Shown piece after piece: positions 664-63,800 of a DNA stretch of 64,000 nt. How positions within the stretch are numbered: position 1 is the first letter of the stretch; every line of letters starts with the position of its first letter. Both the position numbers and the translations under genes were made by a program. This DNA is from an uncultured Bacteroidales bacterium. GTDB lineage: Bacteria; Bacteroidota; Bacteroidia; Bacteroidales; Paludibacteraceae. The notes under the pieces were generated by a model. That model was not told where the DNA came from, made no database searches, and was given only the letters and a program-made list of their open reading frames with translations. The stretch lies in contig CADCEV010000003.1 of assembly GCA_902800525.1 (NCBI GenBank), positions 153,459-217,458 of the forward strand, given 5' to 3'.

Positions 664-688
664 GGAGATATTTATCAATTATTAATTA

Positions 689-2317
689 TCACTTTTCAAT
701 TATCGTAAGGGCGCGGTGGAATTCGGGATCGTAGCGGAGGTTAAACGCCGCTTGACCTTTTTGGTAATAATAGCGCAGAACAATCTCGGATCCCAACATC
801 CTTTTCACTTCCTCTTTATTACGCGCGATAGCTTTTCTGAAATCCGGGGTGAGGATAGGTTCCAGTTCGCGGAGTCTGGTAATGGTGGTGGAATCAATAT
901 CTTCGTGTTCTGCCATCTTGATCATGTCCGCAAAGAACTTGCTTGTTTCGGTTTCGTATTTGAAACCCCGTTCGTCAAGGAACCGGCAAAAATCCTCTAT
1001 CTCTTCATCACTGAGGTCAAAGACTTCCGGAGCTGCTATCGATTCGTGGAGACGATGGTAGCGTGTCGCATAGTCGAAGAAATAGTGGTTTATATAGAGC
1101 GTATAGCAAATATCCACCTTCGCGGAGTCTTCTATGACAATATCCGGCAAAATGCCGCCGGCAGTGTCGCGTTTAAGTTCGTGTCCTTTTTGACGTTCGG
1201 AATAGTCAATCGCCTGTATGCATCGTCCGGAAGGCAGGTAATACTTGCTGGTGGTCACTTTGATATGACCTCCATAGACAATAGGTCGTACGTTCTGAAC
1301 GAGTCCTTTACCGAAGGTGCGCTGCCCGATGAGAGTAGCGCGGTGCAAGTCCTGCAACGAACCGGAGACGATCTCAGAAGCCGAAGCGGAGTTCTTATCC
1401 ACCAATACGATAAGCGGCAGATCTTTGTACCGCGGGGTGTTGCGGGTCTTGTAGGTCCGGTTCGATTGCGAGGTCTTGCCTTTGGTCTCCACGATCGTCT
1501 GATCGCGATCGACGAAGAGGTTCACAATCTGCAATGCCTCGTCAACGATACCTCCTCCGTTTCCGCGCAGATCCACGATCAGTTTGCGTGCCCCTTGGTT
1601 ATAATAGAGGTCGTCAAGCGTGTTGGTGAAAGCAAGCGCCGAGCCTTCCGTGAACTCACTGAAAGCGATATATCCCACCGGTTCGGTCAACGAATCCGCC
1701 TTGATGACAGTTGCGTATGATACAGGCTCCAAGTGTATATCCTCGCGGACAATTGAAACCTTGAACGGCTTGTCCACACCTTCCCGCTCTATCTCTAAGA
1801 CCACGGTTGTACCGGGTTCTCCCCGGAGGTTGTTGCTGACCTCGGAGACAGAGAGACCTTGGGTCGTTTTGCCGTCTATTGTGAGGATGCGGTCTCCGGC
1901 AAGAATACCCGCACGCTGTGCAGGTTTACCCTCGTAGGGGTTGATGGCATAAGTAGCCAATGAGTCTTTTGACACATTCTTTTTTCGTCCTTTGGCTTTA
2001 TCTCTATTCGCTGGCAAAGGACGTTGCTGGATGATGGAGCCGATACCTCCGTATTTGCCGGTAGTGAGCATTCTCAGGTCGCGGTCTTTTTTCTTGGAAT
2101 AATAGACGGTGTACGGGTCTATTTTCCGAAGCATGGCAGTGATGGCGGTCTCCGTCAGATCCTCGTAATTGAGAGTGTCCACATAATTGACATCCACCTG
2201 GCGCATGACATCATTGAAGATCGAAATCGCCTCATCCGCGCGGGTTGTTGCCTGACGCGTTTGGGCATAACCTTGCACGCTCACCGCAAGCAATATCGTG
2301 AATATATATTTGCGCAT
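689..2317 (-). CDS. S41-family C-terminal processing peptidase with PDZ domain
   Basis: Periplasmic serine protease of the CtpA/Tsp type, 542 aa. An N-terminal signal peptide ends near GYAQT (residue 20). A PDZ domain covers about residues 85-190, with a YGGIGS carboxylate loop and an insert rich in Lys/Arg near 105-117. The catalytic domain carries VDLRGNGGG (248-256), the Ser in NSASASEIV (Ser312 by spacing), Lys337 in TFGKG and Gln341. The final residues (..TIIEK) and the TGA-TAA double stop are written by an AT-rich repeat that fills the gap to lysC. It sits between coaD and lysC in a minus-strand run. The cleaved substrate is unknown. Confidence 0.93.
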   Translation of the reverse strand: MRKYIFTILLAVSVQGYAQTRQATTRADEAISIFNDVMRQVDVNYVDTLNYEDLTETAITAMLRKIDPYTVYYSKKKDRDLRMLTTGKYGGIGSIIQQRPLPANRDKAKGRKKNVSKDSLATYAINPYEGKPAQRAGILAGDRILTIDGKTTQGLSVSEVSNNLRGEPGTTVVLEIEREGVDKPFKVSIVREDIHLEPVSYATVIKADSLTEPVGYIAFSEFTEGSALAFTNTLDDLYYNQGARKLIVDLRGNGGGIVDEALQIVNLFVDRDQTIVETKGKTSQSNRTYKTRNTPRYKDLPLIVLVDKNSASASEIVSGSLQDLHRATLIGQRTFGKGLVQNVRPIVYGGHIKVTTSKYYLPSGRCIQAIDYSERQKGHELKRDTAGGILPDIVIEDSAKVDICYTLYINHYFFDYATRYHRLHESIAAPEVFDLSDEEIEDFCRFLDERGFKYETETSKFFADMIKMAEHEDIDSTTITRLRELEPILTPDFRKAIARNKEEVKRMLGSEIVLRYYYQKGQAAFNLRYDPEFHRALTIIEK

Positions 2318-16798: not shown

Positions 16799-17322
16799 TT
16801 TATTTTGCAATATAGTTTTTCTTCTCCGTCGATCTCGACGCGGATAATTTCTTCTTTTTGCACCGCACGGGGCGCTTTGTTTGCTTGAATATAAATCAGG
16901 TCGCCTTGTCGGATTGTCATCACTTTGCTGGCTTGTGCAATCGCCTCCGAAGGGGAAATTACCAACGATTCCTTTGTCCATTGTACTTTGTCCCCTTGTA
17001 CTTCTGTCCATTCTCCTATCGCCAGAGAATAGTCAAAGCAGGTTGCCGTCGTCCATGGTCTTCCTTCTTTTTGCAACTCGCGCAGAATGTCTATTGCTAC
17101 AAAGTCTGCTCCGGGAGCTACTGCATCGTAATATCGCTCTGCAAACCGCGGGGCGATCTCTTTGCCCAAACGACTCACACGCAAGATAAAACAATCGGTC
17201 ACTCCAAGTTCCTTCGTCCATTCAGGGATGAACATCGGCTTACGACCGTTGAGCAGACAACTATCACCTTTGAGTACCATTTCCGGCGCTCCGTTGCTAT
17301 GTACAAAGCCTATTATTTTCAT
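16795..17322 (-). CDS. FAH-family protein with degenerate metal site
   Basis: 175-aa protein related to fumarylacetoacetate hydrolase-family isomerases/hydrolases of Bacteroidota. Recognisable parts are SCLLNGRKPMFIPEW, LRVSRLGKEIAPRFAERYYDAV, GADFVAIDILRELQKEGRPW, CFDYSLAIGEW and the late RQGDLIYIQ. Where relatives carry the Glu-x-Glu metal ligands (YETEVVV-like), this protein reads GVTDCFI, so at least one ligand is missing and activity is doubtful. Residues around EVQGDKVQ are written by a repeat shared with korA. It is first in the porU-porV-ispF run. The promoter -7 box ends only 8 bp before the ATG, so the mRNA is nearly leaderless. Confidence 0.75.
   Translation of the reverse strand: MKIIGFVHSNGAPEMVLKGDSCLLNGRKPMFIPEWTKELGVTDCFILRVSRLGKEIAPRFAERYYDAVAPGADFVAIDILRELQKEGRPWTTATCFDYSLAIGEWTEVQGDKVQWTKESLVISPSEAIAQASKVMTIRQGDLIYIQANKAPRAVQKEEIIRVEIDGEEKLYCKIK
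16981..17004 (-). repeat. 24-bp coding repeat (EVQGDKVQ), copy 1
   Basis: On the minus strand this reads GAAGTACAAGGGGACAAAGT then ACAA. It matches korA 43218-43241 at 23 of 24 bases and in the same reading frame. Flanks continue the pattern as GGACA/GTACA alternations. Confidence 0.85.
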
Positions 17323-19516: not shown

Positions 19517-19583
19517 TAAACTTTAAACTTTCAACTCTCAACTTTATAACTTCTCTAAACTCTAAACTTTCAACACTCAACTA
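19517..19583. repeat. AAACTTTCAACTC-type repeat filling lptD-slyD gap
   Basis: At least five imperfect copies of an AAACTTTCAACTCTC-like unit occupy the whole spacer between lptD and slyD. No promoter box is seen inside it. Confidence 0.7.
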
Positions 19584-38525: not shown

Positions 38526-38529
38526 ATAG

Positions 38530-38553
38530 ATTTACGATTTGACGATTTACGAT
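38530..38553. repeat. ATTTACGATTTGACG repeat, intergenic copy
   Basis: 24 bases identical to 45759-45782 inside rsgA. Here the element fills the gap between the antiporter stop and the yqeY start. Confidence 0.9.
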
Positions 38554-39899
38554 TAGATGAAGATTAACTGTACGATAATATAAACCGGCAGGAGGATGAC
38601 CAAACTGAACTTAATCATATAGCCGAAGAAGGAAGGCATTTTAATACCGCTTTCTTCCGCGATTGCTTTGACCATGAAGTTAGGTCCGTTACCGATATAA
38701 GTCAGCGAACCGAACATGACCGCAGCAATGGAGATGGCTTTGAGCAGGAGCTCAGGAATACCGGCTACATAGCTCATTCCCTCGAACATGCCCGTTACAA
38801 CACCGGCATCAGCAGCTGCCAAACTCTCCGGCAGACCCGTAGCTACGCCATGGAAAGCAACGGCAGTAGGTGTGTTATCCAAGAAGGCAGACAGGGCACC
38901 GGTAGCGTAGTAGAACTGCCATGGATGCGTGAAACCGAGATCCGCTGCGTGTGCTTTGAGATAAGCCAGGGCAGGGGTCATGGTGGTGAAGATACCCAAG
39001 AAAAGAACGGCTACCTCCACAATCGGAGTCCAACTGAATTTATTATCGTCATAGCGCACTTCCTTCTTCGTGGTGTAGAGCGAAAGCCATGTAAGCGAAA
39101 GCAATACTATCTCGCGCAGGTACTTGAGCCACAAGGGAGCGTCGTGGGCACCCATTGCTTTGATGGTTCCTTCATTGATGAAAGCAACGGCAAGTACCAC
39201 ACCCAAGAGATAGAGGAAGTTAATTGTGCCTTTCATTACCAGCGGGGTAGCCTCACGTGCATCGGCAGAAAGGGAAGTCCAGTGCTCTTTCTTGTAGTAA
39301 TAGCTATCCAAAGCGTAGTAAATAGCAAGCAGGATAATTCCTGTTACGGCCCATTCGGGAGCCAAGTGCATAAACCAGGAGAAATGTGCTCCGCGGAGGA
39401 AGAGCATGAACAAAGGAGGATCGCCGAGCGGCGTTAACAATCCACCGCAGTTTGCCACCAAGGCAATGAAAAAGAGGATGGTGTGTACCTTGTGGTCACG
39501 CTGTTTGTTGGTCTCGATCAGCGGACGGATCAGCAACATGGCCGCGCCGGTAGTACCCATGATCGAGGCTAAAATCCAACCTAAACCAAGGAAACCGGTG
39601 TTGACCCACGGCTTGGCTTTCAGGTCACCCGAGAAATGAATGCCGCCCGTGATGACAAACAACGCTAACAGTAAAATAATAAAGGGTACGTAGTCGAAAA
39701 AGATCTGATGCTCCAACTCGTGCATCATTCCTCCCATGATGAGGCACACCGCCACCGGTACACCCAAAAAGAGCGAAACAATGAGTTTGTTGGCATTCTT
39801 TTCCCACCAATGCTCCACCACCAGCGGACCGATGGCGATCATCAATAGCATGAGGCCGAACGGAATCAGCGACCATGCAGAATGTACAAATTGTTCCAT
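38553..39899 (-). CDS. NhaD-like sodium:proton antiporter (IT superfamily)
   Basis: 448-aa inner-membrane transporter with about 11-12 helices. GTTGAAMLLIRPLI and NCGGLLTPLGDPPLFM, with the later DNTPTAVAFHG and YIGNGPNFMVKAI, are the re-entrant-loop motifs of the ArsB/NhaD group. The family exchanges Na+ or Li+ for protons. Substrate specificity is inferred from family. It lies between lepA and yqeY on the minus strand; the stop is at the edge of a short repeat. Confidence 0.88.
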   Translation of the reverse strand: MEQFVHSAWSLIPFGLMLLMIAIGPLVVEHWWEKNANKLIVSLFLGVPVAVCLIMGGMMHELEHQIFFDYVPFIILLLALFVITGGIHFSGDLKAKPWVNTGFLGLGWILASIMGTTGAAMLLIRPLIETNKQRDHKVHTILFFIALVANCGGLLTPLGDPPLFMLFLRGAHFSWFMHLAPEWAVTGIILLAIYYALDSYYYKKEHWTSLSADAREATPLVMKGTINFLYLLGVVLAVAFINEGTIKAMGAHDAPLWLKYLREIVLLSLTWLSLYTTKKEVRYDDNKFSWTPIVEVAVLFLGIFTTMTPALAYLKAHAADLGFTHPWQFYYATGALSAFLDNTPTAVAFHGVATGLPESLAAADAGVVTGMFEGMSYVAGIPELLLKAISIAAVMFGSLTYIGNGPNFMVKAIAEESGIKMPSFFGYMIKFSLVILLPVYIIVQLIFI

Positions 39900-42515: not shown

Positions 42516-44375
42516 GTGAAAAATATTGTAGTTCGATTTTGTGGAGACTCGGGTGACGGCATGCAGTTGACGGGCAATATGTTTGCTCAGTTGGCGGCTG
42601 AAATGGGTCATGAGATCTCCACGTTGCCGGATTTTCCGGCAGAGATTCGTGCGCCGCAGGGAACATTAGGCGGCGTGAGTGCTTTCCAAGTGGAGCTGGG
42701 TAGTGAGGTCTATACCTCGGGTGACAAAGCAGATGTGGTCGTTGCGATGAACGCGGCGGCATTGAAAGTGTGCGCGTTAGGCTCGCATTTCAATCATTCG
42801 CAAGCGCAATTCGACGAAGAGTTTTCCTTATTCCACAAGCACGCAGTGGTGATTGTCGATACGGACAGTTTGGCGGACAAAGACCTGGAGAAAGCGCAGT
42901 ATCACACGGACAATCCGTTTACGGAGTTAGGACTTCCGGAGAGCGTGCAGATCGTGCCGGTAGCGTTGACGACGCTGACGAAAGAGGCGTTGAAGGACAG
43001 CGGCATGGATAATAAGTCCGTGCTCAAATGCCGGAATATGTTTGCTTTGGGCTTGATTTACTGGCTGTTCGACGAGCCGATGGAGAAGGCTATTCACCTG
43101 TTGGAGGAGAAATTCAAGAAGAAACCGGCGTTGGTGGCTCCGAACACGAAAGTGATGGTGGATGGCTATAACTACGGTCAAAACCTGGCGCTCAATGTGC
43201 AGCAAGTTCGCCTTGAGGAAGTACAAGGGGACAAGGTACAAGGTATTTATACATCCATTGCGGGCAACAAGGCGACGGCGTGGGGTTTGATTGCAGCTGC
43301 CGAGAAAGCCGGCAAGAAGCTGTTCTTAGGTTCTTATCCTATCACTCCGGCGACGGATATTCTGCATGAGTTAGCGGCACGCAAAGACATGAACGTCATG
43401 GCGGTACAAGCCGAGGACGAGATAGCCGGTGTTTGTACCGCTATCGGCGCGGCTTTTGCCGGTGATTTAGCTTGTACTTCGACATCCGGTCCGGGTCTGA
43501 GTCTGAAGAGTGAGGCGATCGGTCTGGCGGTGATGGCAGAGTTGCCGTTGGTGGTGATTGATGTACAGCGCGGCGGACCGAGTACAGGTCTTCCGACCAA
43601 GACCGAACAGACGGACTTATTGCAGGCGCTCTACGGTCGTAACGGCGAGTGCCCGGCTGTGGTGATCGCCGCTTCGAGCAGCGCAAACTGCTTTGATTTT
43701 GCATACGAAGCATGCAAAATCGCTCTGGAAAACATGACACCCGTCATTTTATTGACAGATACCTATTTGGCAAACGGAACGGCGTTGTGGCGGATTCCTA
43801 AGTTAGCCGAGTTGCCGGCGATCACCCCGCAGAGTGTGCCGGAAGAGCTGAAAGGACATTATAACCCTGCGCTGCGTGACGAGCGCGGCGTGCGTTATTG
43901 GGCGTACCCGGGCATGGAAGGTTACGAGCACCGGAACATCGGTTTGGAGCGCGATGCAGCGAAAGGTACGATCTCCACGAACCCGGAAAATCACGAGCAG
44001 ATGGTCCTGGCACGCAAAAAGAAAATCGAGCAGATAGCAGAGAGAATACCTAATCTGCAAATCATTAAATCTTCAAATCCTCAAATGAGCGGGACGCTCC
44101 TTGTAGGCTGGGGTAGTACGGAAGGTCATCTGCATGCTGCGGCGAATGAGTTAGGCTGCGATTTGGCGCATTTCAATTATATCTGCCCGCTGCCGAAGAA
44201 TACCCGCGAAGTGCTGAGTCAATACAAGCGAATAATCGTTTGTGAATTGAATACGGGTCAGTTCGCAGCATACTTGCGCGCGCAATTCCCGGAACTGAAG
44301 ATAGAACAATACAACGAAATTCAAGGACAACCGTTTGCTGTTGAACGAATCGTGAAATTCGTTCAGCAGAATTGA
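42516..44375 (+). CDS. korA: 2-oxoacid:ferredoxin oxidoreductase, fused gamma-alpha subunit
   Basis: 619 aa. Works with KorB to oxidatively decarboxylate a 2-oxoacid (probably 2-oxoglutarate) to acyl-CoA, reducing ferredoxin. Gamma domain at 1-185 (CGDSGDGMQLTGNMFA, APQGTLGGVSAFQVELGS), then the alpha pyrimidine-binding domain (GSYPITPATDILHELA, STSGPGLSLKSEAIGLAV, QRGGPSTGLPTKTEQTDL) and the C-terminal domain. The start is GTG at 42516. Two segments look repeat-derived: EVQGDKVQ (about 235-242) between the gamma and alpha domains, and LQIIKSSNPQ (about 514-523). The gene ends QQN with a TGA-TAA stop inside repeat DNA. Confidence 0.95.
   Translation: MKNIVVRFCGDSGDGMQLTGNMFAQLAAEMGHEISTLPDFPAEIRAPQGTLGGVSAFQVELGSEVYTSGDKADVVVAMNAAALKVCALGSHFNHSQAQFDEEFSLFHKHAVVIVDTDSLADKDLEKAQYHTDNPFTELGLPESVQIVPVALTTLTKEALKDSGMDNKSVLKCRNMFALGLIYWLFDEPMEKAIHLLEEKFKKKPALVAPNTKVMVDGYNYGQNLALNVQQVRLEEVQGDKVQGIYTSIAGNKATAWGLIAAAEKAGKKLFLGSYPITPATDILHELAARKDMNVMAVQAEDEIAGVCTAIGAAFAGDLACTSTSGPGLSLKSEAIGLAVMAELPLVVIDVQRGGPSTGLPTKTEQTDLLQALYGRNGECPAVVIAASSSANCFDFAYEACKIALENMTPVILLTDTYLANGTALWRIPKLAELPAITPQSVPEELKGHYNPALRDERGVRYWAYPGMEGYEHRNIGLERDAAKGTISTNPENHEQMVLARKKKIEQIAERIPNLQIIKSSNPQMSGTLLVGWGSTEGHLHAAANELGCDLAHFNYICPLPKNTREVLSQYKRIIVCELNTGQFAAYLRAQFPELKIEQYNEIQGQPFAVERIVKFVQQN
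43218..43241 (+). repeat. 24-bp coding repeat (EVQGDKVQ), copy 2
   Basis: Matches 16981-17004 (minus) at 23 of 24 bases, same frame, inside korA at the gamma/alpha domain junction. Confidence 0.85.
44053..44086 (+). repeat. Probable repeat insert in korA
   Basis: CAAATCATTAAATCTTCAAA then TCCTCAAATG: TCAAAT-type units encoding QIIKSSNPQM. Similar in style to the segment at 57283-57318. Confidence 0.5.
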
Positions 44376-44401
44376 TAATTGATAATTGAAAATTGATAAT
44401 T
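44370..44401. repeat. AATTGATAATTG repeat between korA and korB
   Basis: Supplies the korA stop codons TGA-TAA and runs up to the korB ATG. Confidence 0.8.
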
Positions 44402-45466: not shown

Positions 45467-45502
45467 AAAAAAGTGTGCCAAGAGATTCGGCACACTTTTT
45501 TT
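45467..45502. terminator. Bidirectional terminator between korB and rsgA
   Basis: AAAAAAGTGTGCC - aagagattc - GGCACACTTTTTTT; serves the convergent korAB and waaA-rsgA transcripts. Confidence 0.92.
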
Positions 45503-46487
45503 ATCGATATTTGCTTTCGGAACAGTCGCCGAGAATAGAGAGGTACGACTCATACCGGCTGATAGCTATTTCGCCATGTTCGACAGCTTCGATGACCGAG
45601 CAACCGGGTTCGTTGGTGTGCGTGCAGTTACCAAAACGACATTCGGCGGCTTGCTTGAAGATCTCCGGGAAGAAATGGCTCACCTCTTCGCGCTCAAAAT
45701 CAATCGTTCCGAAACCTTTGATACCCGGGGTATCAATCACAGCCCCACCTGGCTGTGAATTTACGATTTGACGATTTACGATGTACGATTGATCTTCCAG
45801 AAAATACATCTCGCTGAAAGTGGTGGTGTGCATGCCTTTGTCGTGAGCATCGGAGATCTTGCCGGTACGCGTGAGCTCCTGACCAAAAAGGGCATTGAGC
45901 AGGGTCGATTTGCCGACACCGGAGTTGCCGGAGAGCAGGGTAGTCTTGCCTTGCAGCAAGGCGTTTATAGCACTTCGCGCGTTTGAGCCTTCGGCGTTGA
46001 GATCAAGAGCGCTGATGGAGAGGGTCTGATAACCGATGGATTCGTATAGTGCGCGGAGGTCATTCAGTTGAGCCTGCTCTTCGTCCGTGAGGAGGTCGAT
46101 CTTATTAAATATAAGGATCGCGCGTACGCGATAAGCCTCACAGGTGGCTAAGAAACGATCAATGAAAGTCGTGCTCGTCACCGGGTGATTGACGGTGATG
46201 ATGAGCGCTACCTGGTCAATGTTCGCCGCAAGAATATGGCTCTCTTTGCTGAGGTTTGTGGAGCGACGGATGATGTAGTTGCGACGAGGAACAATCTCCA
46301 CAATCCAGTGAACAGATTCCCCGTCGGTTTGTGATTTGACTTCCACGTAGTCTCCGACGGCAACGGGATTAGTGGAACGGATACCACGAATGCGGAAGTT
46401 GCCTTTTATATGGCACTCCACACTCGTACCATCGTCCAAGCGAACGATGTAACTGCTACCCGTTGATTTGACGACTAAGCCTTTCAA
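45501..46487 (-). CDS. rsgA: Ribosome small-subunit GTPase RsgA with repeat insert
   Basis: 328-aa circularly permuted GTPase for late 30S maturation. OB fold at 1-65 (the KGN motif is in CHIKGNFRIRG). G4 IFNKIDLL (127-134), G1 GNSGVGKSTLLN (187-198), switch THTTTFSEM and G3 DTPGIKGFG (252-260). The zinc-finger tail shows ECRFGNCTHTNEPGC. Residues about 232-245 (DQSYIVNRQIVNSQ) are an insert just before GGAVIDTPG, where relatives have a tight turn. The DNA for it is an ACGATTTACG repeat found intergenically in this window. Last gene of the minus run, after frr. Confidence 0.95.
   Translation of the reverse strand: MKGLVVKSTGSSYIVRLDDGTSVECHIKGNFRIRGIRSTNPVAVGDYVEVKSQTDGESVHWIVEIVPRRNYIIRRSTNLSKESHILAANIDQVALIITVNHPVTSTTFIDRFLATCEAYRVRAILIFNKIDLLTDEEQAQLNDLRALYESIGYQTLSISALDLNAEGSNARSAINALLQGKTTLLSGNSGVGKSTLLNALFGQELTRTGKISDAHDKGMHTTTFSEMYFLEDQSYIVNRQIVNSQPGGAVIDTPGIKGFGTIDFEREEVSHFFPEIFKQAAECRFGNCTHTNEPGCSVIEAVEHGEIAISRYESYLSILGDCSESKYR
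45757..45793. repeat. ATTTACGATTTGACG repeat inside rsgA
   Basis: 45759-45782 is identical over 24 bases to the intergenic copy 38530-38553. It is in frame and encodes about 12 extra residues before the G3 motif. Confidence 0.9.
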
Positions 46488-46488
46488 G

Positions 46489-46522
46489 GCGTTAAACCGT
46501 TAAACTGTTAAACTGTTAAATT
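46489..46522. repeat. TTAAACTGTTAAACTG repeat, rsgA-frr gap
   Basis: Four copies of a TTAAACTG-like octamer fill the gap and provide the frr stop codon TAA. The same family occurs at 48378-48416 and 53029-53055. Confidence 0.8.
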
Positions 46523-46523
46523 G

Positions 46524-47087
46524 TTAAACGGTCATGATCTCTTTTTCCTTAGCGGCGTAGAGGGCTTCGACTTTGGCAATGTATTTGTCGTGGGTCTTTT
46601 GCATGTCCTCTTCGGCGTCTTTCTCAACATCTTCGCTCAGTCCGTTCTTGACGAGTTTCTTGAACTCCTCAATGGCATCTCGGCGTGCGTTGCGGATAGA
46701 CATCTTCGCATTCTCGGTCTCTGCTTTACATTGTTTGCAGAGTTCGCGACGGCGTTCCTCGGTGAGGGGCGGCAAGATCAGACGAATCGTCTCGCCGTTG
46801 TTGGAGGGAGCGAGTCCGATATTCGAGTTGATGATCGCGCGCTCTATCTCATTGATGAGCTTTTTCTCCCACGGCGTGATAGCAATCGTACGGGCGTCCG
46901 GCGTAGTGACCGTAGCGCACGAACTAAGCGGCGAGAGAGTGCCGTAATACTCGATCTTGATCGGATCGAGAATACGCGGGTTTGCTTTACCTGCACGAAT
47001 GTGCTGAAGGGTGTCGTCCAAGTGAGCGACTGCGTTCTGCATTTGCTCTTCGGCAGCAGATTCAAATAATTCTAATTCGTCGTTCAT
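46524..47087 (-). CDS. frr: Ribosome recycling factor
   Basis: 187 aa; splits post-termination ribosomes with EF-G. The three-helix tail ([19 protein letters not shown] then [24 protein letters not shown]), the [11 protein letters not shown] segment and the central beta domain ([10 protein letters not shown]) are typical. It follows pyrH as in most bacteria. Confidence 0.97.
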
Positions 47088-47858: not shown

Positions 47859-48375
47859 ACCAAGAGGCATACATTGCGTAGTTGTTGGCAATTTTCTTGT
47901 TTATCTCTTCTGTTTGGGCGGGGGCGGCTTTTTTGATGAATTTAGCCGGAACACCTCCCCAAATCTCGTGCGGACCGATCTGCGTGCCTTTGAGCACCAA
48001 TGCATTCGCCGCCACAATGGCTCCTTCGCCCACATGGGCGTCATCGAGCAGGGTAGCCCCCATACCGATCAGCGCGTAGTCATCAACGTCGGCGCCGTGG
48101 ATCGTGACGTTATGTCCGACGGACACGTAGTCGCCTAATTTGATAGTCGATTTCTGATAGAGAGTGTGGAGTACTGCTCCGTCCTGAATGTTACAATGCT
48201 TGCCGATGACGATGGTATTCACATCGCCTCGGAGCACGGAATTAAACCATAGACTTGATCCTTCCCCCACCGTCACATCGCCGACGACGGTGGCGTTCTC
48301 CGCCATGAACACGTCGTCCGCGATATGCGGGGTAAGGATTTCTCCGTTTCTGTTTATGGTCTTTATTAGAGCCAT
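47851..48375 (-). CDS. Gamma-carbonic-anhydrase-family hexapeptide protein
   Basis: 174-aa left-handed beta-helix protein (GDVTVGEGSSLWFNSVLRGD, NIQDGAVLHT, LGDYVSVGHNVTIHGADVDD, IGMGATLLDDAHVGEG). The three His zinc ligands of gamma carbonic anhydrases are in place (VLHT, VGHNVTIHG). Activity is not certain because many relatives (YrdA/PaaY) have unknown substrates. It lies between tpiA and pyrH. Confidence 0.9.
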   Translation of the reverse strand: MALIKTINRNGEILTPHIADDVFMAENATVVGDVTVGEGSSLWFNSVLRGDVNTIVIGKHCNIQDGAVLHTLYQKSTIKLGDYVSVGHNVTIHGADVDDYALIGMGATLLDDAHVGEGAIVAANALVLKGTQIGPHEIWGGVPAKFIKKAAPAQTEEINKKIANNYAMYASWYV

Positions 48376-48377
48376 AA

Positions 48378-48416
48378 ATGTTAAATTGTTAAGCTGTTAA
48401 ACTGTTAAATTGTTAG
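48378..48416. repeat. TTAAACTGTTAAATTG repeat
   Basis: Octamer-type TTAAACTG repeats in the gap before the gamma-CA gene; they also supply the tpiA stop TAA. Confidence 0.75.
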
Positions 48417-52491: not shown

Positions 52492-53028
52492 TCAATTATC
52501 ATAGTGAATCAAATCAAAAATTGCGTAATTGATTATATCGAAATAGTTGCCTTCCACGCCCTCGGAAGAGATGGTTTTGCCGTCATGGGCGATGATGGTC
52601 TTGATGCGGATGATCTTCGCCAGAATCATATCTACGATCCCTTCTTTCGACATCTCGCGCCATGCCTCGCCGTAGTCGTGATTCTTGCGGAGCATCAGTT
52701 CTTTGGCTTCTTTGAGCACCTGGTCATACAGTTCGGTCGCCTCCTCGCTGCTCATGTCAATGGAATCGGCATAGCCCTTGCGGTCCTGGATAATCGCCAT
52801 AATGCCGTAGTTGACCACGGCGCGGAGGTTGCCTTCTATATCGTCGCCCACGAGGCTCACGCCCGTCTCCTGACGTTGACGGATATTACAGATCTTGATG
52901 TATAACTGATCGGTAATGCCGTGCAGACGGAAGATCCGCCACGAGGGACCATAGTCCTTCATTTTGTCAATAAATATCGCGCGGCATTGAGCGGTTACTT
53001 GATCAAATTGTTTATTAGTATCAGCCAT
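52492..53028 (-). CDS. DUF1599 protein
   Basis: 178 aa, two internally related halves (KMKDYGPSWRIFRLHGITDQLYIK and RKNHDYGEAWREMSKEGIVDMILAK), the diagnostic layout of DUF1599. The (D/N)YG.(A/S)WR pairs suggest a nucleotide- or metal-binding all-helical fold of the MazG/dUTPase-like kind, but no activity is known to me. It ends HYDN with a repeat-derived TGA-TAA stop. It starts 6 bp after the hisS stop, at the edge of a TTAAACTG repeat. Confidence 0.9.
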   Translation of the reverse strand: MADTNKQFDQVTAQCRAIFIDKMKDYGPSWRIFRLHGITDQLYIKICNIRQRQETGVSLVGDDIEGNLRAVVNYGIMAIIQDRKGYADSIDMSSEEATELYDQVLKEAKELMLRKNHDYGEAWREMSKEGIVDMILAKIIRIKTIIAHDGKTISSEGVEGNYFDIINYAIFDLIHYDN

Positions 53029-53055
53029 AACAGTTTAACAGCTTAACGTTTTAAC
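53029..53055. repeat. TTAAACTG-type repeat at hisS/DUF1599 junction
   Basis: AACAGTTTAACAGCTTAACG spans the last hisS codons (VKTLSC), its stop and the base before the DUF1599 ATG. Confidence 0.75.
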
Positions 53056-54372
53056 GAGCTCCCCGAGCTCCATTAATTCTTGTTCTCCGGAGGTCATGTT
53101 TTTGAGCATCACCTTGTTCTGCGCCATTTCGTCACCGCCTACAATCGCCACGAACGGGATCTGTTTGGTGTCGGCATAACCCATCTGTTTCTTCATCTTC
53201 GCGGGTTCGGGATAAACTTCCACGGCAATGCCGTTGGCGCGCAGCTCTTTTGCCCATCGGAGCGCATAACGCAACTCGTCCTGTCCGAAAGCAGCGAAGA
53301 GCACCTGTGTCGAAGACTGTAATGCCGCAGGGAAAAGGTTCAGTTCGGTCAATACGTCGTAGATACGGTCTGCGCCGAAGGAGATACCCACACCGGATAC
53401 GTTCGGCAGACCGAAAATACCCGTCAGGTTATCGTACCTTCCGCCGCCGGTGATAGAACCGATCTGTGCGTCCAGCGCCTTGACCTCGAAGATCGCGCCG
53501 GTGTAATAATTCAGTCCGCGGGCGAGACAAAGGTCTAAGTCAATGGATAATTGACAATTGACAATGGATAATTCGTCAAATATCTCTTCCATCTCGGCGA
53601 CACCCTTCAAACCGATCTCGCTTCCTGCCAAATACTCACGCAGCGAGGCGAGTTTGGCTTTGGGATCATTCTCCCTCCCTTCAGGGAGGGTCGGGGTAGG
53701 CTTCAGTATCGGTTGCAACGCCTCTACCTGTTCATCGCTCAGACCGCGTTCTTTGAGTTCGGCATTCACTGCCTCTACACCGATCTTATCGAGTTTGTCA
53801 ATTGCCACGGTGATATCTACGATCTTATCCGGCGCGCCGATCACTTCGGCTATACCGGCAAGGATCTTGCGGTTATTAATGTGCAGACATACGCGGATGC
53901 CCAAACGGCGATATACCTCCTCCACGATCTGGATAAGCTCCAATTCGCCGATCAGACTGTCCGAGCCGATTACATCCACGTCGCATTGATAGAACTCGCG
54001 GTAGCGGCCTTTCTGCGGTCTGTCTGCGCGCCATACAGGCTGTATCTGAAAGCGTTTGAAGGGGAAAGCAATCTCCTCGCGGTGTTGCACCACGTAGCGC
54101 GCAAACGGAACGGTCAGGTCGTAACGCAGACCTTTCTCCGGCGCCGATGCGGCTTTCTCACCGCTGTTCTGAATACGGAACAGCAGTTTGTCGCCTTCCT
54201 CTCCGTACTTACCCATCAGGGTGCCGATGTTCTCCATTGCCGGCGTTTCAATCTGCTGAAAACCATACAGACCGAACACGGAACGAATGGTGTCAAAAAT
54301 ATAATTACGGCGTGCCATTTCGAGTTGTCCGAAATCACGTGTGCCTTTTGGAATACTGGGTTTCTGTGCCAT
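53035..54372 (-). CDS. hisS: Histidyl-tRNA synthetase with two repeat inserts
   Basis: 445-aa class II synthetase. [18 protein letters not shown], motif 2 [15 protein letters not shown], HisA-type [16 protein letters not shown] and motif 3 [13 protein letters not shown] are present, then the anticodon domain. Two segments look like repeat insertions: residues about 224-234 ([11 protein letters not shown], a C-rich hairpin) and about 267-277 ([11 protein letters not shown], a CAATTGACAATGG repeat). Both are in frame and lie in a region linking core motifs, so the enzyme is probably functional. The C-terminus is written by a TTAAACTG repeat. Confidence 0.95.
53541..53573. repeat. ATTGACAATGGATAATT repeat inside hisS
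   Basis: Encodes [11 protein letters not shown] in frame. Shares AATTGACAATGGATA with the pyrH-frr spacer. Confidence 0.8.
53671..53704. repeat. C-rich hairpin repeat inside hisS
   Basis: CTCCCTCCCTTCAGGGAGGG stem followed by TCGGGGTAGGCTTC; coding for [11 protein letters not shown] on the minus strand. Confidence 0.8.
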
Positions 54373-54377
54373 AATTT

Positions 54378-54518
54378 TTATTTACGATTTTACGATTTAC
54401 GATTTAACGATTTATTGACGAGTTTTATTGATTTACGATTTACGCGGCGGACAATCGTCAATTATTCTCAATTGAACAATCAATCGTACCTCGTCAATCG
54501 TCAAATCGTCAATTATCA
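54378..54518. repeat. Composite repeat block between waaA and hisS
   Basis: 140-bp gap made of TTTACGATTTACG units, then TCAATTATTCTCAATTGAAC, then TCGTCAATCGTCAAATCG. The middle part is nearly identical to 59347-59380. It supplies the waaA TGA-TAA stop. No promoter box seen. Confidence 0.8.
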
Positions 54519-55769
54519 ATTCTCAAATATTTGCCCAAATATTTGATTGGTTGCCCCGAGTTCGCTCAGAACATACGCTGCGGCTTTGGCGCCGATCTCG
54601 GTATGTTGCTCCAACGCGGTGTTGAGGGCGGTTTCTGTCTCTTTATAGTTGCGGATGCTGCGTGCGGCGCCGGCGGCGATCAGTCCTTTCGCCTCGCGGA
54701 AATGCCGGTAGTTAGGTCCGAAGATCACCGGCACGCCGTACACCGCCGCTTCGATCGTGTTATGAATACCGACTCCGAAACCGCCGCCGATATACGCCGT
54801 TTGCCCGAAGCGGTAGATGGAGGACAGCAGTCCCATGGTGTCTATCAGCAGGACGCGTGCATGACGGAGAGCGTTCTGCCGCGCAGCGGGAGACAGGGCG
54901 GCTAAGGTCGTGTAACGCAGCGCCTGACCTTGGAACAGATTGAAGATCAGATGCAAATGCTCCTCGTCTATCTCATGCGGCACAAGGATCAGTTTGGTCG
55001 TCTGGTTCCAGTCGTTCGCCATGTACTCAGCCAGCAGTGCCTCGTCTTTCGGCCATGTACTGCCGGCAACGATCACGCGCTCGCATCCCTCGGTGAACTG
55101 CGCTACCGGGATCAGCCGCGGGTCGTCTTCTTTGAGCCCGGACTTGACGTCCATCACGCGGTCAAAACGGGTATCTCCGGCTACGGAGACTTGTGTCACT
55201 CCATGACGTTTGAGCAGCTCCAACGACTCCTCGTCCTGCACGTAAATATGACTCAGACAACGGAGCACCGACAAATACCATTTGCCGTACCACCGGAAGA
55301 AAATCTGCCCGGGGCGGAAGATAGCGGAAATAGAGTAGGCGGGTACGCCCTGCTTTTTCAATTCGCGCAGGTATGCCGGCCAGAACTCATATTTGACGAA
55401 AATAGCCATCTTCGGCTGCAAAGCCTGAATGAACTGTCTGGCATTCTTGGGGGTCGGGAAAGGCAGATAGAGCACTCCGTCCGCCAGCGGGTAGTTCTTC
55501 CTCGCCTCATAGCCGGAAGGAGAGAAGAACGTCACAATGATCTTGACCCCCTCTTTGTTCGCTTTGAGCCGTTCGATAAGCGGACGGGCTTGCTCAAACT
55601 CACCCACAGAGGCGGCATGAATCCATATCGCATTCTTGGGCAACATGCGCCCGTGAACGCTCACGCTGCCGTTCTGATAAGTTATCCCTTTCTGACCCTC
55701 GATGATCTGACGAGCCTTCTTATGCCCGAACAGGGATGCAAGCCATATTATGAAAAAATAGATATACAT
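54516..55769 (-). CDS. waaA: 3-deoxy-D-manno-octulosonic acid transferase
   Basis: 417 aa from the ATG at 55769. Adds Kdo to lipid IVA, at the inner face of the inner membrane. One N-terminal anchor (YIYFFIIWLASLFG), then HAASVGEFEQARPLIERLK with the catalytic Glu, VKYEFWPAYLREL, VAGDTRFDRV, VAGSTWPKDE and GGGFGVGIHNTIEAAVYGVP. The open frame runs far upstream through tsaD, but that part is a shadow. It ends IFEN at a repeat-derived double stop. First gene of the ten-gene minus run. Confidence 0.96.
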   Translation of the reverse strand: MYIYFFIIWLASLFGHKKARQIIEGQKGITYQNGSVSVHGRMLPKNAIWIHAASVGEFEQARPLIERLKANKEGVKIIVTFFSPSGYEARKNYPLADGVLYLPFPTPKNARQFIQALQPKMAIFVKYEFWPAYLRELKKQGVPAYSISAIFRPGQIFFRWYGKWYLSVLRCLSHIYVQDEESLELLKRHGVTQVSVAGDTRFDRVMDVKSGLKEDDPRLIPVAQFTEGCERVIVAGSTWPKDEALLAEYMANDWNQTTKLILVPHEIDEEHLHLIFNLFQGQALRYTTLAALSPAARQNALRHARVLLIDTMGLLSSIYRFGQTAYIGGGFGVGIHNTIEAAVYGVPVIFGPNYRHFREAKGLIAAGAARSIRNYKETETALNTALEQHTEIGAKAAAYVLSELGATNQIFGQIFEN

Positions 55770-59326: not shown

Positions 59327-59327
59327 T

Positions 59328-59405
59328 CAATTCTCAATTATCAATTGTCAATTATTCTCAATTGAACAATAAATCGTTAAATCGTAAATCGTCCAATCGT
59401 CAATT
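59328..59405. repeat. Composite repeat block between uvrA and Kef gene
   Basis: TCAATTATCAATTGTC, then TCAATTATTCTCAATTGAAC, then AATCGTAAATCG units. The middle matches 54457-54492 with one or two changes. Supplies the uvrA stop TAA. Confidence 0.8.
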
Positions 59406-62025
59406 ATATAAATCTCCCCGTAATGCTCTTGGGGTTCTTGCGAATGTCTTCCACGGTGCCTTCGGCAACCAACTGTCCGCCTTCACGACCGCCTTCGGGA
59501 CCCATGTCGATAATCCAGTCGCATGCCCGGATCACGTCCGTGTTGTGCTCGATGATCAGCACCGTGTTGCCTTTATCCACCAACTGCCGCAACACACCTA
59601 ACAACACCCGTATGTCCTCGAAATGAAGACCGGTGGTCGGTTCGTCTAATATATACAAGGTCTTGCCCGTGGACGGTCGGGACAGCTCCGTCGCTAATTT
59701 GATACGCTGGCTCTCGCCGCCGGAGAGGCTGGTGGAGGACTGACCGAGTTTGATATAGCCCAAACCCACGTCCTGAATGGTCTTGATCTTACGCAGGATC
59801 TTGGGCTGCGGCTCAAAGAACTCCACGGCTTGGTTCACCGTCATATCTAATATGTCCGCAATGGACTTGCCTTTCCATCGTACCTCTAAGGTCTCGCGGT
59901 TATACCGTTGTCCGCCGCATACTTCGCACGGCACATACACATCGGGCATGAAATGCATCTGGATTGTCTTGTAGCCGTTACCCATACACTCTTCGCATCG
60001 TCCGCCTTTGGCGTTGAAAGAGAACCGCCCGGCTTTCCAGCCCCTGATCTTCGATTCGGGTAACTGCGCAAACAGGTCGCGTATATCGTTGAAGACGTTG
60101 GTGTACGTAGCGGGATTACTGCGCGGCGTACGGCCGATAGGTGACTGATCGACGTTGATCACTTTGTCAATATGCTCCACACCCTCAATACGTTTGTACG
60201 GCAACGGGGCTTGTTTGGAGCGGTAGAACTTCTGGCTCAGGATAGGGTAGAGGGTCTGATTGATCATACTGCTCTTGCCGCTTCCGCTCACGCCTGTCAC
60301 GCATACCATCTGCCCCAAAGGAATACGCACCGTCACGTCCTTCAAGTTATTGCCCGTGCAGCCCGAGAGGGTGATGAACTGCTTTTTCGATATCTCGATA
60401 TCTCGATCTGTCGATATCTCGATTTTCTGTTCCCCTTTCAGATATTTAGCGGTCAGCGTATCGGTCTTGAGCAGTTCTTCCGGCGTGCCGCTGAACAGCA
60501 CCTTGCCGCCCAGACGACCGGCTTTCGGACCTATATCCACGATCCAATCCGCCTCACGCATCATCTGCTCGTCATGTTCCACCACAATGACCGAATTGCC
60601 CATGTCGCGCAACTCTTTGAGACTGTTGATCAGACGCTCGTTGTCGCGTTGGTGCAGACCGATACTCGGCTCGTCCAATATATACAGCACGTTCACCAAA
60701 CGGCTGCCTATCTGTGTTGCCAGACGGATCCGCTGGCTCTCGCCGCCGCTCAGGCTCTCGCTGCTACGGCTGAGGCTCAGATAACTCAAACCCACCGACT
60801 GCATGAAACGAAGCCTTGCGCAGATCTCTTTCAGAATCGGCTCGGCGATGGCGCGTTGTTTGTCGTTTAACTGCGGACCGATGTTCGTCAGTTTGTCTAA
60901 CAACTCCTCTATATCCATCTCCGCCATTTGGGAGATATTGTACTCGCCGATGCGGTAACTCAGCGACTCTTTGCTCAGACGCTTGCCCTGACATTCCGGG
61001 CAGACGATCCATTCCTCCTGCTTCTCCTCTTCCTCCTCGTTTGTTGCCAAATTCTGCAACTCTTCCCACCAGTTATCGCTCTGTATAGCCTCATCTACGG
61101 CGTCCGTCGCGCCTTGTACATTGTCCCCGCGTACCTTCCCGAGCCCTTTGCAGCAAGGACACCAGCCCGAGGGACTGTTGAACGAGAACGTATGCGGCGC
61201 CGGCTCCTGGTAACTCAGACCCGTCTCCGGGCACATGAGGTTGCGACTGAAGAACCGTACCTCCTCCGGCTTATCGTGCAGAGCGATCTCCATCACCCCG
61301 TTGCCCTGCGTCATCGCACGGTCAATAGACTGTCTCAACCGACGCAGGTCATTCTCATCTCCCTCCTTTGTGGAGAGGGTAAGGCTCTTGACTTTCAACC
61401 GATCTACCACTACCTCTATCGTGTGTACTTTGTATCGGTCCAGTTTCATGCCGGCTACGATCTCCTGCACCTCGCCATCGACGCGCACATGCACAAACCC
61501 TTTCTTGCGGATCGTCTCGAACAACTCTTTGTAATGACCCTTGCGCGCCTTGATCAGCGGAGCTAAAACCAATATCTTCTGCCCCGCATATTCGTTCACG
61601 ATCAGGTCCACGATCTGTTCGTCCGTATAATGCACCATCGGCTTGCCGGACAGGTACGAATAGGCTATTCCTGCGCGGGCGTAAAGCAGTCGCAAAAAAT
61701 CATACACCTCCGTTATAGTACCTACCGTCGAACGGGGATTCTTGCTGGTGGTCTTCTGGTCAATGGAGATCACGGGGCTTAAACCGGTTATCTTATCCAC
61801 GTCCGGACGCTGCATCTGTCCGATGAACCCCCGGGCGTACGAAGAGAACGTCTCCATGTACCGCCGTTGACCCTCTGCAAAAATGGTGTCGAAAGCCAAG
61901 GAGGACTTACCCGAACCGCTCAAGCCGGTGATCACCGACAGCCGTTTACGGGGGATAGACACGTTGATATTTTTCAAATTATGTACCCGTGCTCCAATTA
62001 CCTCTATATTGCCTTCCTGTTCCAT
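59404..62025 (-). CDS. uvrA: Excinuclease ABC subunit A with two repeat inserts
   Basis: 873-aa damage-recognition ATPase of nucleotide excision repair, somewhat shorter than the usual 940. Walker A GLSGSGKSSLAF (34-45) and GVSGSGKSSM; signatures LSGGESQRIRLATQIG and LSGGESQRIKLATELS; Walker B ILDEPSIGLHQRD and ILDEPTTGLHFED. The second zinc module is GRCEECMGNGYK..CEVCGG. The first has CPCCKGLG but a reduced outer half (LMCPETGLS). Residues about 213-223 (LTLSTKEGDEN) and 533-546 (KIEISTDRDIEISK) are encoded by repeats. It has its own promoter. Confidence 0.97.
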   Translation of the reverse strand: MEQEGNIEVIGARVHNLKNINVSIPRKRLSVITGLSGSGKSSLAFDTIFAEGQRRYMETFSSYARGFIGQMQRPDVDKITGLSPVISIDQKTTSKNPRSTVGTITEVYDFLRLLYARAGIAYSYLSGKPMVHYTDEQIVDLIVNEYAGQKILVLAPLIKARKGHYKELFETIRKKGFVHVRVDGEVQEIVAGMKLDRYKVHTIEVVVDRLKVKSLTLSTKEGDENDLRRLRQSIDRAMTQGNGVMEIALHDKPEEVRFFSRNLMCPETGLSYQEPAPHTFSFNSPSGWCPCCKGLGKVRGDNVQGATDAVDEAIQSDNWWEELQNLATNEEEEEKQEEWIVCPECQGKRLSKESLSYRIGEYNISQMAEMDIEELLDKLTNIGPQLNDKQRAIAEPILKEICARLRFMQSVGLSYLSLSRSSESLSGGESQRIRLATQIGSRLVNVLYILDEPSIGLHQRDNERLINSLKELRDMGNSVIVVEHDEQMMREADWIVDIGPKAGRLGGKVLFSGTPEELLKTDTLTAKYLKGEQKIEISTDRDIEISKKQFITLSGCTGNNLKDVTVRIPLGQMVCVTGVSGSGKSSMINQTLYPILSQKFYRSKQAPLPYKRIEGVEHIDKVINVDQSPIGRTPRSNPATYTNVFNDIRDLFAQLPESKIRGWKAGRFSFNAKGGRCEECMGNGYKTIQMHFMPDVYVPCEVCGGQRYNRETLEVRWKGKSIADILDMTVNQAVEFFEPQPKILRKIKTIQDVGLGYIKLGQSSTSLSGGESQRIKLATELSRPSTGKTLYILDEPTTGLHFEDIRVLLGVLRQLVDKGNTVLIIEHNTDVIRACDWIIDMGPEGGREGGQLVAEGTVEDIRKNPKSITGRFI
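60387..60425. repeat. TCGATATC repeat inside uvrA
   Basis: Four TCGATATC/TCGATCTG octamers in frame, coding EISTDRDIEIS in the linker before the second ATPase half. Confidence 0.75.
61356..61387. repeat. C-rich hairpin repeat inside uvrA
   Basis: CTCCCTCCTTTGTGGAGAGG then GTAAGGCTC. Same family as 17408-17436 and 53671-53704. Codes LTLSTKEGDE. Confidence 0.7.
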
Positions 62026-63691: not shown

Positions 63692-63695
63692 CCCC

Positions 63696-63800
63696 CTCGC
63701 CTTCGTCCCCTGCGTCGCTTATCAAAGCGACGTTCCCTCGCCTTCGTCCCCTGCGTCGCTTATCAAAGCGACGTTCCCTCGCCCTCTTTGTCCCTTGCGT
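63696..63800. repeat. 41-bp tandem hairpin repeat, two exact copies plus variant third
   Basis: Copies at 63696-63736 and 63737-63777, each with stem GTCGCTT..AAGCGAC. A third copy from 63778 keeps the flank (TCCCTTGC) but has another stem, GTCGGGATC..GATCCCGAC. Confidence 0.88.

Follow-up and report, generated by a model that had tools for sequence, protein, structure and literature searches.

Heptameric short tandemly repeated repetitive sequences (STRRs) of cyanobacteria are reportedly made of degenerate 7-bp units in tandem and dispersed over the genome, and in heterocyst-forming species they are said to lie within a functional gene, rnpB. Moreover, short-patch double illegitimate recombination is reported to leave sharp-edged patches derived from intragenomic or foreign single-stranded DNA, as rare events seen in a model strain. 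Arrays that can be likened to the STRRs by format occur in a stretch of 64,000 nucleotides from an uncultured Bacteroidales bacterium of the Paludibacteraceae (contig CADCEV010000003.1; this whole stretch is called the window), where one 24-base segment encodes EVQGDKVQ both in KorA, a 2-oxoacid:acceptor oxidoreductase, and in an unrelated protein of the FAH family. As in the cyanobacterial STRRs, degenerate 7-bp units stand in tandem and the copies are dispersed mainly outside genes; however, the Paludibacteraceae arrays also lie in frame in housekeeping proteins, place different words at one homologous slot, and show wholesale swaps and one transferred slot content. The swaps share with short-patch illegitimate recombination the sharp-edged replacement of short segments, seen at loci compared between the window's genome and its nearest relative, but here they are read from genome comparison only.

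Another system of period 7, the TAACTGA direct repeats, is recorded in MacGregor 2015 (PMC4679880) from Beggiatoaceae, cyanobacteria, and five Bacteroidetes; there the repeats lie mainly between genes, many of them directly before a start codon, with some within open reading frames (ORFs), Paludibacter propionicigenes has two sets, and heptamers related to TAACTGA are rare or absent as repeats. Period and closeness to start codons are thus held in common, but TAACTGA, as PMC4679880 presents it, is a system of one word, whereas here a genome has many. Two TAACTGA units in tandem were found nowhere in 464 kb of the window's genome and once in samples from four further members of the genus (380 kb in all), and forward TAACTGA repeats bring stops in all frames, whereas the two arrays that encode EVQGDKVQ, here called GTACAA arrays, are open in all six. 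The palindromic elements of Rickettsia, as described in PMC10969869 and PMC5656822, are about 150 bp long and fall into ten families. The first-pass annotation had likened the segment to them, and the likeness holds for the presence of dispersed repeats in frame in unrelated proteins of one genus, but not for palindrome and size: the Paludibacteraceae arrays are tandem, non-palindromic, and about 25-35 bp long, and the occupant of a site varies by species. The longest self-complementary match in the GTACAA arrays is only 4 bases and the two fold at -0.8 kcal/mol (z -1.7) and -0.9 kcal/mol (z -1.1), thus they are unlike the Rickettsia elements in structure. Among the open-licence papers listed for heptamer repeats in Bacteroidetes and Bacteroidales, none deals with Paludibacteraceae repeats or in-frame swaps and, as far as the papers listed go, what is new is that homologous protein slots hold a vocabulary biased by genome and that this vocabulary is swapped.

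The 24-mer is probably a copy from a genus-restricted, STRR-like repertoire of heptamers, in which words become uniform within a genome and pass from one species to another as short recombination patches at tolerant slots. The match itself is as first described: positions 43218-43241 (+), GAAGTACAAGGGGACAAGGTACAA, and 16981-17004 (-), GAAGTACAAGGGGACAAAGTACAA, are identical at 23 of 24 bases and are read in one frame, GAA GTA CAA GGG GAC AAR GTA CAA, giving EVQGDKVQ, which takes up residues 235-242 in KorA and residues 107-114 in the FAH-family protein (175 residues), two proteins that are indeed non-homologous (PF01855 and PF01558 against PF01557). Within the window, the 14-base core GTACAAGGGGACAA has two exact copies and is met at five places with at most 2 mismatches, for an expectation of 0.19, and none of 100 shuffles gave five. 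The proposal of a dispersed DNA repeat lying in frame in both genes has stood, the core recurring genome-wide and relatives not carrying the same residues in both proteins, whereas that of one short element cleanly inserted into each gene was dropped, since alignments of KorA (30 loci, from 70 genomes with a match) and of the FAH-family protein (30 loci, from 69 genomes with a match) show differing occupants, namely other words, sequence resembling repetitive extragenic palindromes (REP-like) or ordinary residues, and no pattern of one element against an empty site. The nearest relative has the FAH array in common with the window's genome and a quite different insert in KorA. Moreover, the KorA array substitutes for a short loop of nearly equal length (a linker of 24 residues, against 23-25 in most ordinary ones); it is a replacement of a loop and not an interruption of a conserved segment, and the 24-mer is one word among many tandem words of about 7 bp.

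The window's genome (G000: 2,388,893 bases in 33 contigs, 92.7% complete), its nearest relative (G021), and the other genomes compared are drafts, mostly metagenome-assembled genomes (MAGs); many of the closest relatives come from rumen and other ruminant gut samples. In G000, 60 places lie within 2 mismatches of the 14-base core, against 12 for the reversed-pattern control, and the alignment of 30 of these copies, anchored on the first two units so that the first 14 bases are forced, gives a consensus of about 30 bases, GTACAAR GGGACAAN GTACAAR GTACMAAG, beyond which the flanks are hardly alike. Two copies retained in that consensus, both GTACAAAGGTACAA and under no ORF of 100 residues, resemble the -7 promoter element of Bacteroidetes, TAnnTTTG, so that confusion with promoters is possible there. 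With at most 1 mismatch, GTACAARGGGACAA has 17-86 copies in 17 of the 73 genomes of the genus and at most 11 in the remaining 56, while 47 genomes of other families hold at most 5 each (75 in total, against 156 for reversed controls). These counts confine the GTACAA repeat to the genus among the genomes searched, and within the genus it is patchy.

The repeat belongs to a much larger set of arrays. In 464 kb of G000, 197 tandem arrays reach a Tandem Repeats Finder (TRF) score of at least 40, against 4 in one dinucleotide shuffle, and the spectrum of periods has its maximum at 7 (14.4 per 100 kb, with none in the shuffle), a peak that returns in four other genomes of the genus sampled at 80-100 kb each. 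Across 26 genus samples (1.46 Mb), arrays of period 7 occur at 11.3 per 100 kb, against 1.3 in 20 samples from other families (0.39 Mb), and at least one is present in 19 of the 26 and in 3 of the 20, respectively. Lengths cluster near 32 bases: 30 of 82 period-7 arrays measure 32-35 bases and 15 are longer, with a median of 32 bp. The repertoire consists of arrays of about 32 bp, each of four to five degenerate units of 7-8 bp. A second, smaller peak is seen at period 11, with 4.95 per 100 kb in the genus samples and 0.52 in other families.

Arrays of period 7-9 in the same 464 kb are intergenic in 84 of 141 cases, although intergenic DNA makes up only about 9% of the sample, genes being called by a crude greedy choice of ORFs. 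With genes called in the same way, 51 arrays lie in 45 of the 157 gaps between codirectional genes, and 34 of the 51 reach into the start codon of the downstream gene or terminate no more than 8 nt short of it. Relative to the gene, the 51 intercistronic arrays are G-rich in 29 cases, C-rich in 17, and equal in 5, and 33 coding arrays are G-rich in 12 and C-rich in 21; this mixed orientation argues against a strong strand constraint, and a role at the RNA level is not favoured for the intercistronic arrays. The arrays occupy intergenic gaps and, in frame, loops of proteins.

In KorA, the array fills slot 1 (residues 235-242) between the POR (13-218) and POR_N (267-480) domains, residues 236-242 being coil with a predicted local distance difference test (pLDDT) score below 50 in a structure model that is modest, given its mean pLDDT of 69.7; slot 2 (residues 513-524) falls in another predicted coil (509-526). 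The linker was compared in 74 sequences, the window's and those of 73 of 80 loci, seven loci misfitting the motif. About half of the linkers (38 by eye) consist of ordinary residues, and the others carry repeats of CCATCAG, AAATCTC, CCAATCA, GAGAGTG, GGTTAGA or CCGACGG, or palindromic sequences. By a codon shuffle that keeps the residues (1000 shuffles for linkers and 200 for control segments), significant periodicity (p<=0.01) is seen in 23 of the 74 linkers, where chance would give 0.7, and in none of 147 other KorA segments; the period is 7 in 19 of the 23. As three does not divide 7, this periodicity is not accounted for by repeated peptides. For slot 2 the search pattern fitted 6 of the 74 sequences, of which 5 are periodic, too few for a rate. 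The array segment of the FAH-family protein, EVQGDKVQWTK, aligns with KVNGELRQEGK of FAHD1. At this slot 27 of the 30 sequences could be tested, and 9 of the 27 proved periodic, seven with period 7 and two with period 8. On a KorA tree of the 74 genes built without the linker, at least 16 changes between periodic and non-periodic linkers are needed, and at least 29 among 23 word states, the words being labelled by eye; in the group that includes the window, all 22 rows carry some repeat, mostly different ones. The KorA and FAH slots hold different arrays in different species, and EVQGDKVQ is most likely an inert, tolerated filler of a linker or hairpin, not a functional motif, because the arrays sit in slots of little constraint and would be kept where the frame suits.

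Other occupants of these slots were also met. One korA linker (locus L186) runs to 74 residues of CCGACGG repeats, for which the test gave period 11; the palindrome AATGATGRAATGAGCGC...GTTGCTCAATGATG, or a related sequence, stands in the FAH slots of five genomes (G002, G004, G006, G015, and G036) and in one korA (L131); and REP-like CCCTCCC sequences fill FAH or KorA slots in other genomes.

The frame shared by KorA and the FAH-family protein is a general feature of the repeat family, given that neither array has a stop codon in any of six frames and that 17 of 25 coding copies use the same frame. Those 25, of the 30 aligned copies, lie within ORFs of 100 residues or more; besides the 17 in the VQGDKVQ frame, 5 are read on the opposite strand (LCTLSLCTL-like) and 3 in other frames, one copy (L001) having been assigned by the script to a longer overlapping ORF and not to the FAH frame. 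The five opposite-strand copies form, by eye, the hydrophobic core of apparent signal peptides, VLCTLSLCTLL, 11 to 49 residues from the first possible start, and four of the five are followed by a lipobox-like cysteine. Eight other copies lie 16-36 residues from the end of their ORF, in its last tenth, within what appear by eye to be C-terminal domains of type IX secretion; they may have been inherited with a paralogous domain and not be independent.

How the occupants change is best seen between G000 and G021, whose KorA and FAH-family proteins are 94% and 98% identical, respectively. Of 31 arrays, 29 could be mapped, and they make up 27 loci, which were classed by eye: the array is conserved at 15, has a different length at 2, and is replaced or strongly altered at 10, four of which are coding, with flanks alike. 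At the replaced loci, numbering 11 in this analysis through the manual inclusion of korA slot 1, flank identity is 0.73 at 0-15 nt and 0.94 at 15-30 nt, against 0.97 and 0.96 at the 15 conserved loci, so the replaced tracts are short and sharply bounded. Among eight KorA pairs with flanks at least 0.95 identical, three have slots less than 0.6 identical. The opposite arrangement is found in the korA genes L123 and L124, whose flanks are 81.5% identical while the slot and 27 nt of adjacent korA codons are nearly identical; L122 is 92-100% identical to L123 in most 50-base flank windows, with an unrelated slot. The inclusion of adjacent korA codons in the shared tract points to homologous exchange rather than independent insertion, and one exchange between species, by which genes otherwise diverged have the slot content in common, is thus well supported.

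Words are moreover biased by genome, as "dialects". The FAH word of G035, ATGGACAATGGACAA, has 86 copies there, the most of 81 genomes, 42 of which have none, and the FAH word of G030, G003, and G032 has 102, 26, and 27 copies in them and none in G000, G030 ranking fourth. For the palindrome found in the FAH slot of five species, the highest count (14 copies) is that of a carrier, G006, and G000 has none. The G037 word ranks fourth of 81 in its own genome (75 copies) with noisier controls, and it is less clean, since in G127 the reversed control (116) exceeds the pattern (42); G127 seems to have another abundant related word. Single-word counts thus speak strongly for G035 and give a mixed picture for the rest. 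Over pairs of period-7 arrays, words are shared in 6.7% within a genome against 1.8% between genomes, above all of 300 shuffles (maximum 4.0%), and with G000 and G021 removed the figures are 4.5% and 0.9%, a value of 4.5% being reached by none of 500 shuffles.

The arrays sit in slots with little sequence constraint, namely gaps between codirectional genes, often from stop to start, and flexible loops in which the frame is kept, and two processes probably act on them together. Within a genome, copies of a word would spread and be homogenised through ectopic annealing of short single-stranded DNA at heptamers, the annealed strands, from the same genome or taken up, replacing the patch between heptamers; between species, short patches of homologous recombination (about 60-110 bp) could transfer the slot content. 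Selection may then retain arrays that suit the frame, such as VQGDKVQ in hydrophilic loops and, from the opposite strand, LCTLSLCTL in signal peptides. The putative molecular agent of the swaps would accordingly be the annealing of short single strands. ComEC, present in G000 and in 29 of the 31 genomes searched, allows DNA uptake and is not a demonstration of it, and a loss of mismatch repair was rejected as an explanation, MutS_I being present in G000 and in 29 of the 31 genomes searched.

Several points weigh against a homogenised and exchanged repertoire. The genomes are drafts and mostly MAGs, seven 20-kb samples among the 26 of the genus have no period-7 array of score 40, and the TRF score limit may hide short arrays, cutting the 32-bp peak on its short side. 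No significant periodicity is found in 51 of the 74 KorA linkers and in 18 of the 27 FAH segments, and the FAH arrays of G000 and G021 reach p=0.02 only. The word of G030, G003, and G032 is commonest in G015 (153 copies), whose FAH gene carries the palindrome, and the four carriers of the palindrome other than G006 have 2-5 copies of it, while genomes without it in FAH have up to 7. A strict test for exchange, applied to all 2,701 KorA pairs (flanks at most 0.86 and slot at least 0.93 identical), was passed by two pairs, L123/L124 and L123/L177, which represent one exchange; the pairs L173/L151 and L151/L143 look similar on inspection, but what they have in common might be a repeat that entered each gene independently. 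Within one genome no donor-recipient pair was caught and, since copies at different loci are similar and not identical, copying within a genome is something that we infer.

It is possible, though on balance doubtful, that inheritance concerns not a sequence but a format, defined by period 7, about 32 bp, and a tolerant slot, with self-propagating heptamers that convert one another and move between species. If so, loops of orthologous housekeeping proteins would be rewritten as cassettes from a genome-wide, species-specific vocabulary, the many annealing registers of tandem heptamers would drive their mutual conversion within the cell, and one DNA word would serve as a hydrophilic loop on one strand and as a signal peptide on the other.

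The best surviving rival, which seems unlikely, is a defined mobile element of about 30 bp, a non-palindromic counterpart of the Rickettsia elements, transposed in frame by a dedicated enzyme. The unit order and edges common to 30 copies, as well as the restriction to one genus with a patchy copy number, would fit it, but part of the unit order is built in by the anchoring of the alignment on the first two units. Moreover, it is largely borne out that many unrelated words of matching period turn over at the same sites without shared ends, most changed loci between G000 and G021 look replaced rather than lengthened, and no target-site duplication was noticed at those loci, inspected by eye only.

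Plain replication slippage, local and independent at tolerant sites, with the sharing of words due to coincidence or base composition, appears just as improbable or slightly more so. One locus differs between G000 and G021 by three whole units, as slippage would produce, and among long simple repeats no class was as abundant in most genomes as heptanucleotides (Mrazek 2007, as related in PMC4679880). However, a sharp-edged substitution of one word by another is not a product of slippage, G000 has MutS, and neither the abundance of ATGGACAATGGACAA in G035 beside its absence from about half of the genomes nor a within-genome sharing of words above every shuffle agrees with coincidence.

An origin from an enzyme of the DRT10 or telomerase kind, which by reverse transcription of a short RNA template writes repeats later captured by the genome, has a precedent, since DRT10 produces tandem-repeat cDNA, with 9-nt repeats in one system and motifs of variable length in others (PMC12632851), and the genome richest in GTACAA, G063, has two matches to PF00078. 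Such an origin is nevertheless very improbable and is disfavoured by the distribution of PF00078, which matches in only 20 of 81 genus genomes (61 without a match) and was not found by profile in the repeat-rich G000, G021, G034, G035, and G046, although absence from incomplete genomes is no proof.

Hardly credible is convergence or common ancestry at the protein level, by which a similar hairpin or linker motif would have evolved in both proteins: the FAHD1 segment loosely resembles EVQGDKVQWTK, but the identity lies in the DNA, with a period that is not a multiple of three, residue-keeping codon shuffles seldom reproduce the periodicity (p=0.002 for KorA, where convergence is largely refuted, and p=0.02 for FAH), and most relatives differ in residues at both sites. 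Equally hard to credit is an artefact of assembly or MAG chimerism, which draft genomes would invite, as the arrays preserve reading frames, are seen again in many assemblies made independently in several projects, and are common to G000 and G021 at matching positions at 15 of 27 loci.

The usual view of repeats within bacterial proteins makes them rare accidents or switches of phase variation, whereas this genus has a vocabulary of short repeats in the same loops of core enzymes, with words that change by species. It offers a natural experiment on the spread of short repeats, on loops that tolerate almost any sequence, and on recombination patches that move between species. In addition, it carries a warning that aligned linkers of such proteins are not homologous residue by residue.

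Table 1. Arrays and genes of the window, with positions, strand where given, and supporting data.
Feature	Position	Strand	Basis and comparison
Tandem-heptamer array GTACAAG GGGACAA GGTACAA GG, EVQGDKVQ in KorA (slot 1, inter-domain linker)	43218..43245	+	TRF period 7; codon-shuffle p=0.002
Array GTACAAG GGGACAAA GTACAAT GGACAAA, EVQGDKVQWTK in FAH-family protein (hairpin segment)	16971..17004	-	Period 7; codon-shuffle p=0.020
korA, 2-oxoacid:acceptor oxidoreductase, gamma-alpha fusion, 619 aa	42516..44375	+	PF01558 and PF01855
FAH-family protein, 175 aa	16795..17322	-	PF01557, E 3.7e-9
Second korA array, AAATC words, residues 513-524 (slot 2)	44052..44086	+	TRF; codon-shuffle p=0.002; coil 509-526; sequence unrelated in G021
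(AATTGAT)n array over korA stop up to korB start (ATG 44402 directly after)	44370..44401	+	TRF; identical in G021
ATTTACG array within rsgA (gene 45501-46487, -)	45759..45790		TRF; PF03193
CAATTGA/CAATGGA array within hisS (gene 53035-54372, -)	53541..53573		TRF; PF13393; replaced in G021
TCGATATC array within uvrA-family gene (59404-62025, -)	60387..60423		TRF; PF17760; REP-like CCCTCCC sequence in G021
Intergenic TAAACTT/CAACTCT array	19517..19582		TRF; content differs in G021
Intercistronic GATTTAC array	38529..38554		TRF; G021 version 15 bp shorter
Intercistronic GTTAAACT array	46491..46529		TRF; kept in G021
Intercistronic TAAACTGT array, stop to start	48375..48415		TRF; kept in G021
Intercistronic TTTACGAT / TCAATCG arrays	54380..54530		TRF; AATTCAC words instead in G021
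Intercistronic TCAATTA and AAATCGTC arrays	59327..59404		TRF; replaced in G021
TTATCAA array over gene end	672..704		TRF; rearranged in G021

Several short intercistronic gaps of the window (those at 44370-44401, 46491-46529, 48375-48415, 53028-53055, and 38529-38554) consist largely of one array of 7-8 bp units that runs from stop to start. In addition, a 41-bp unit is perfectly repeated in tandem, in 2.2 copies, at 63694-63783.

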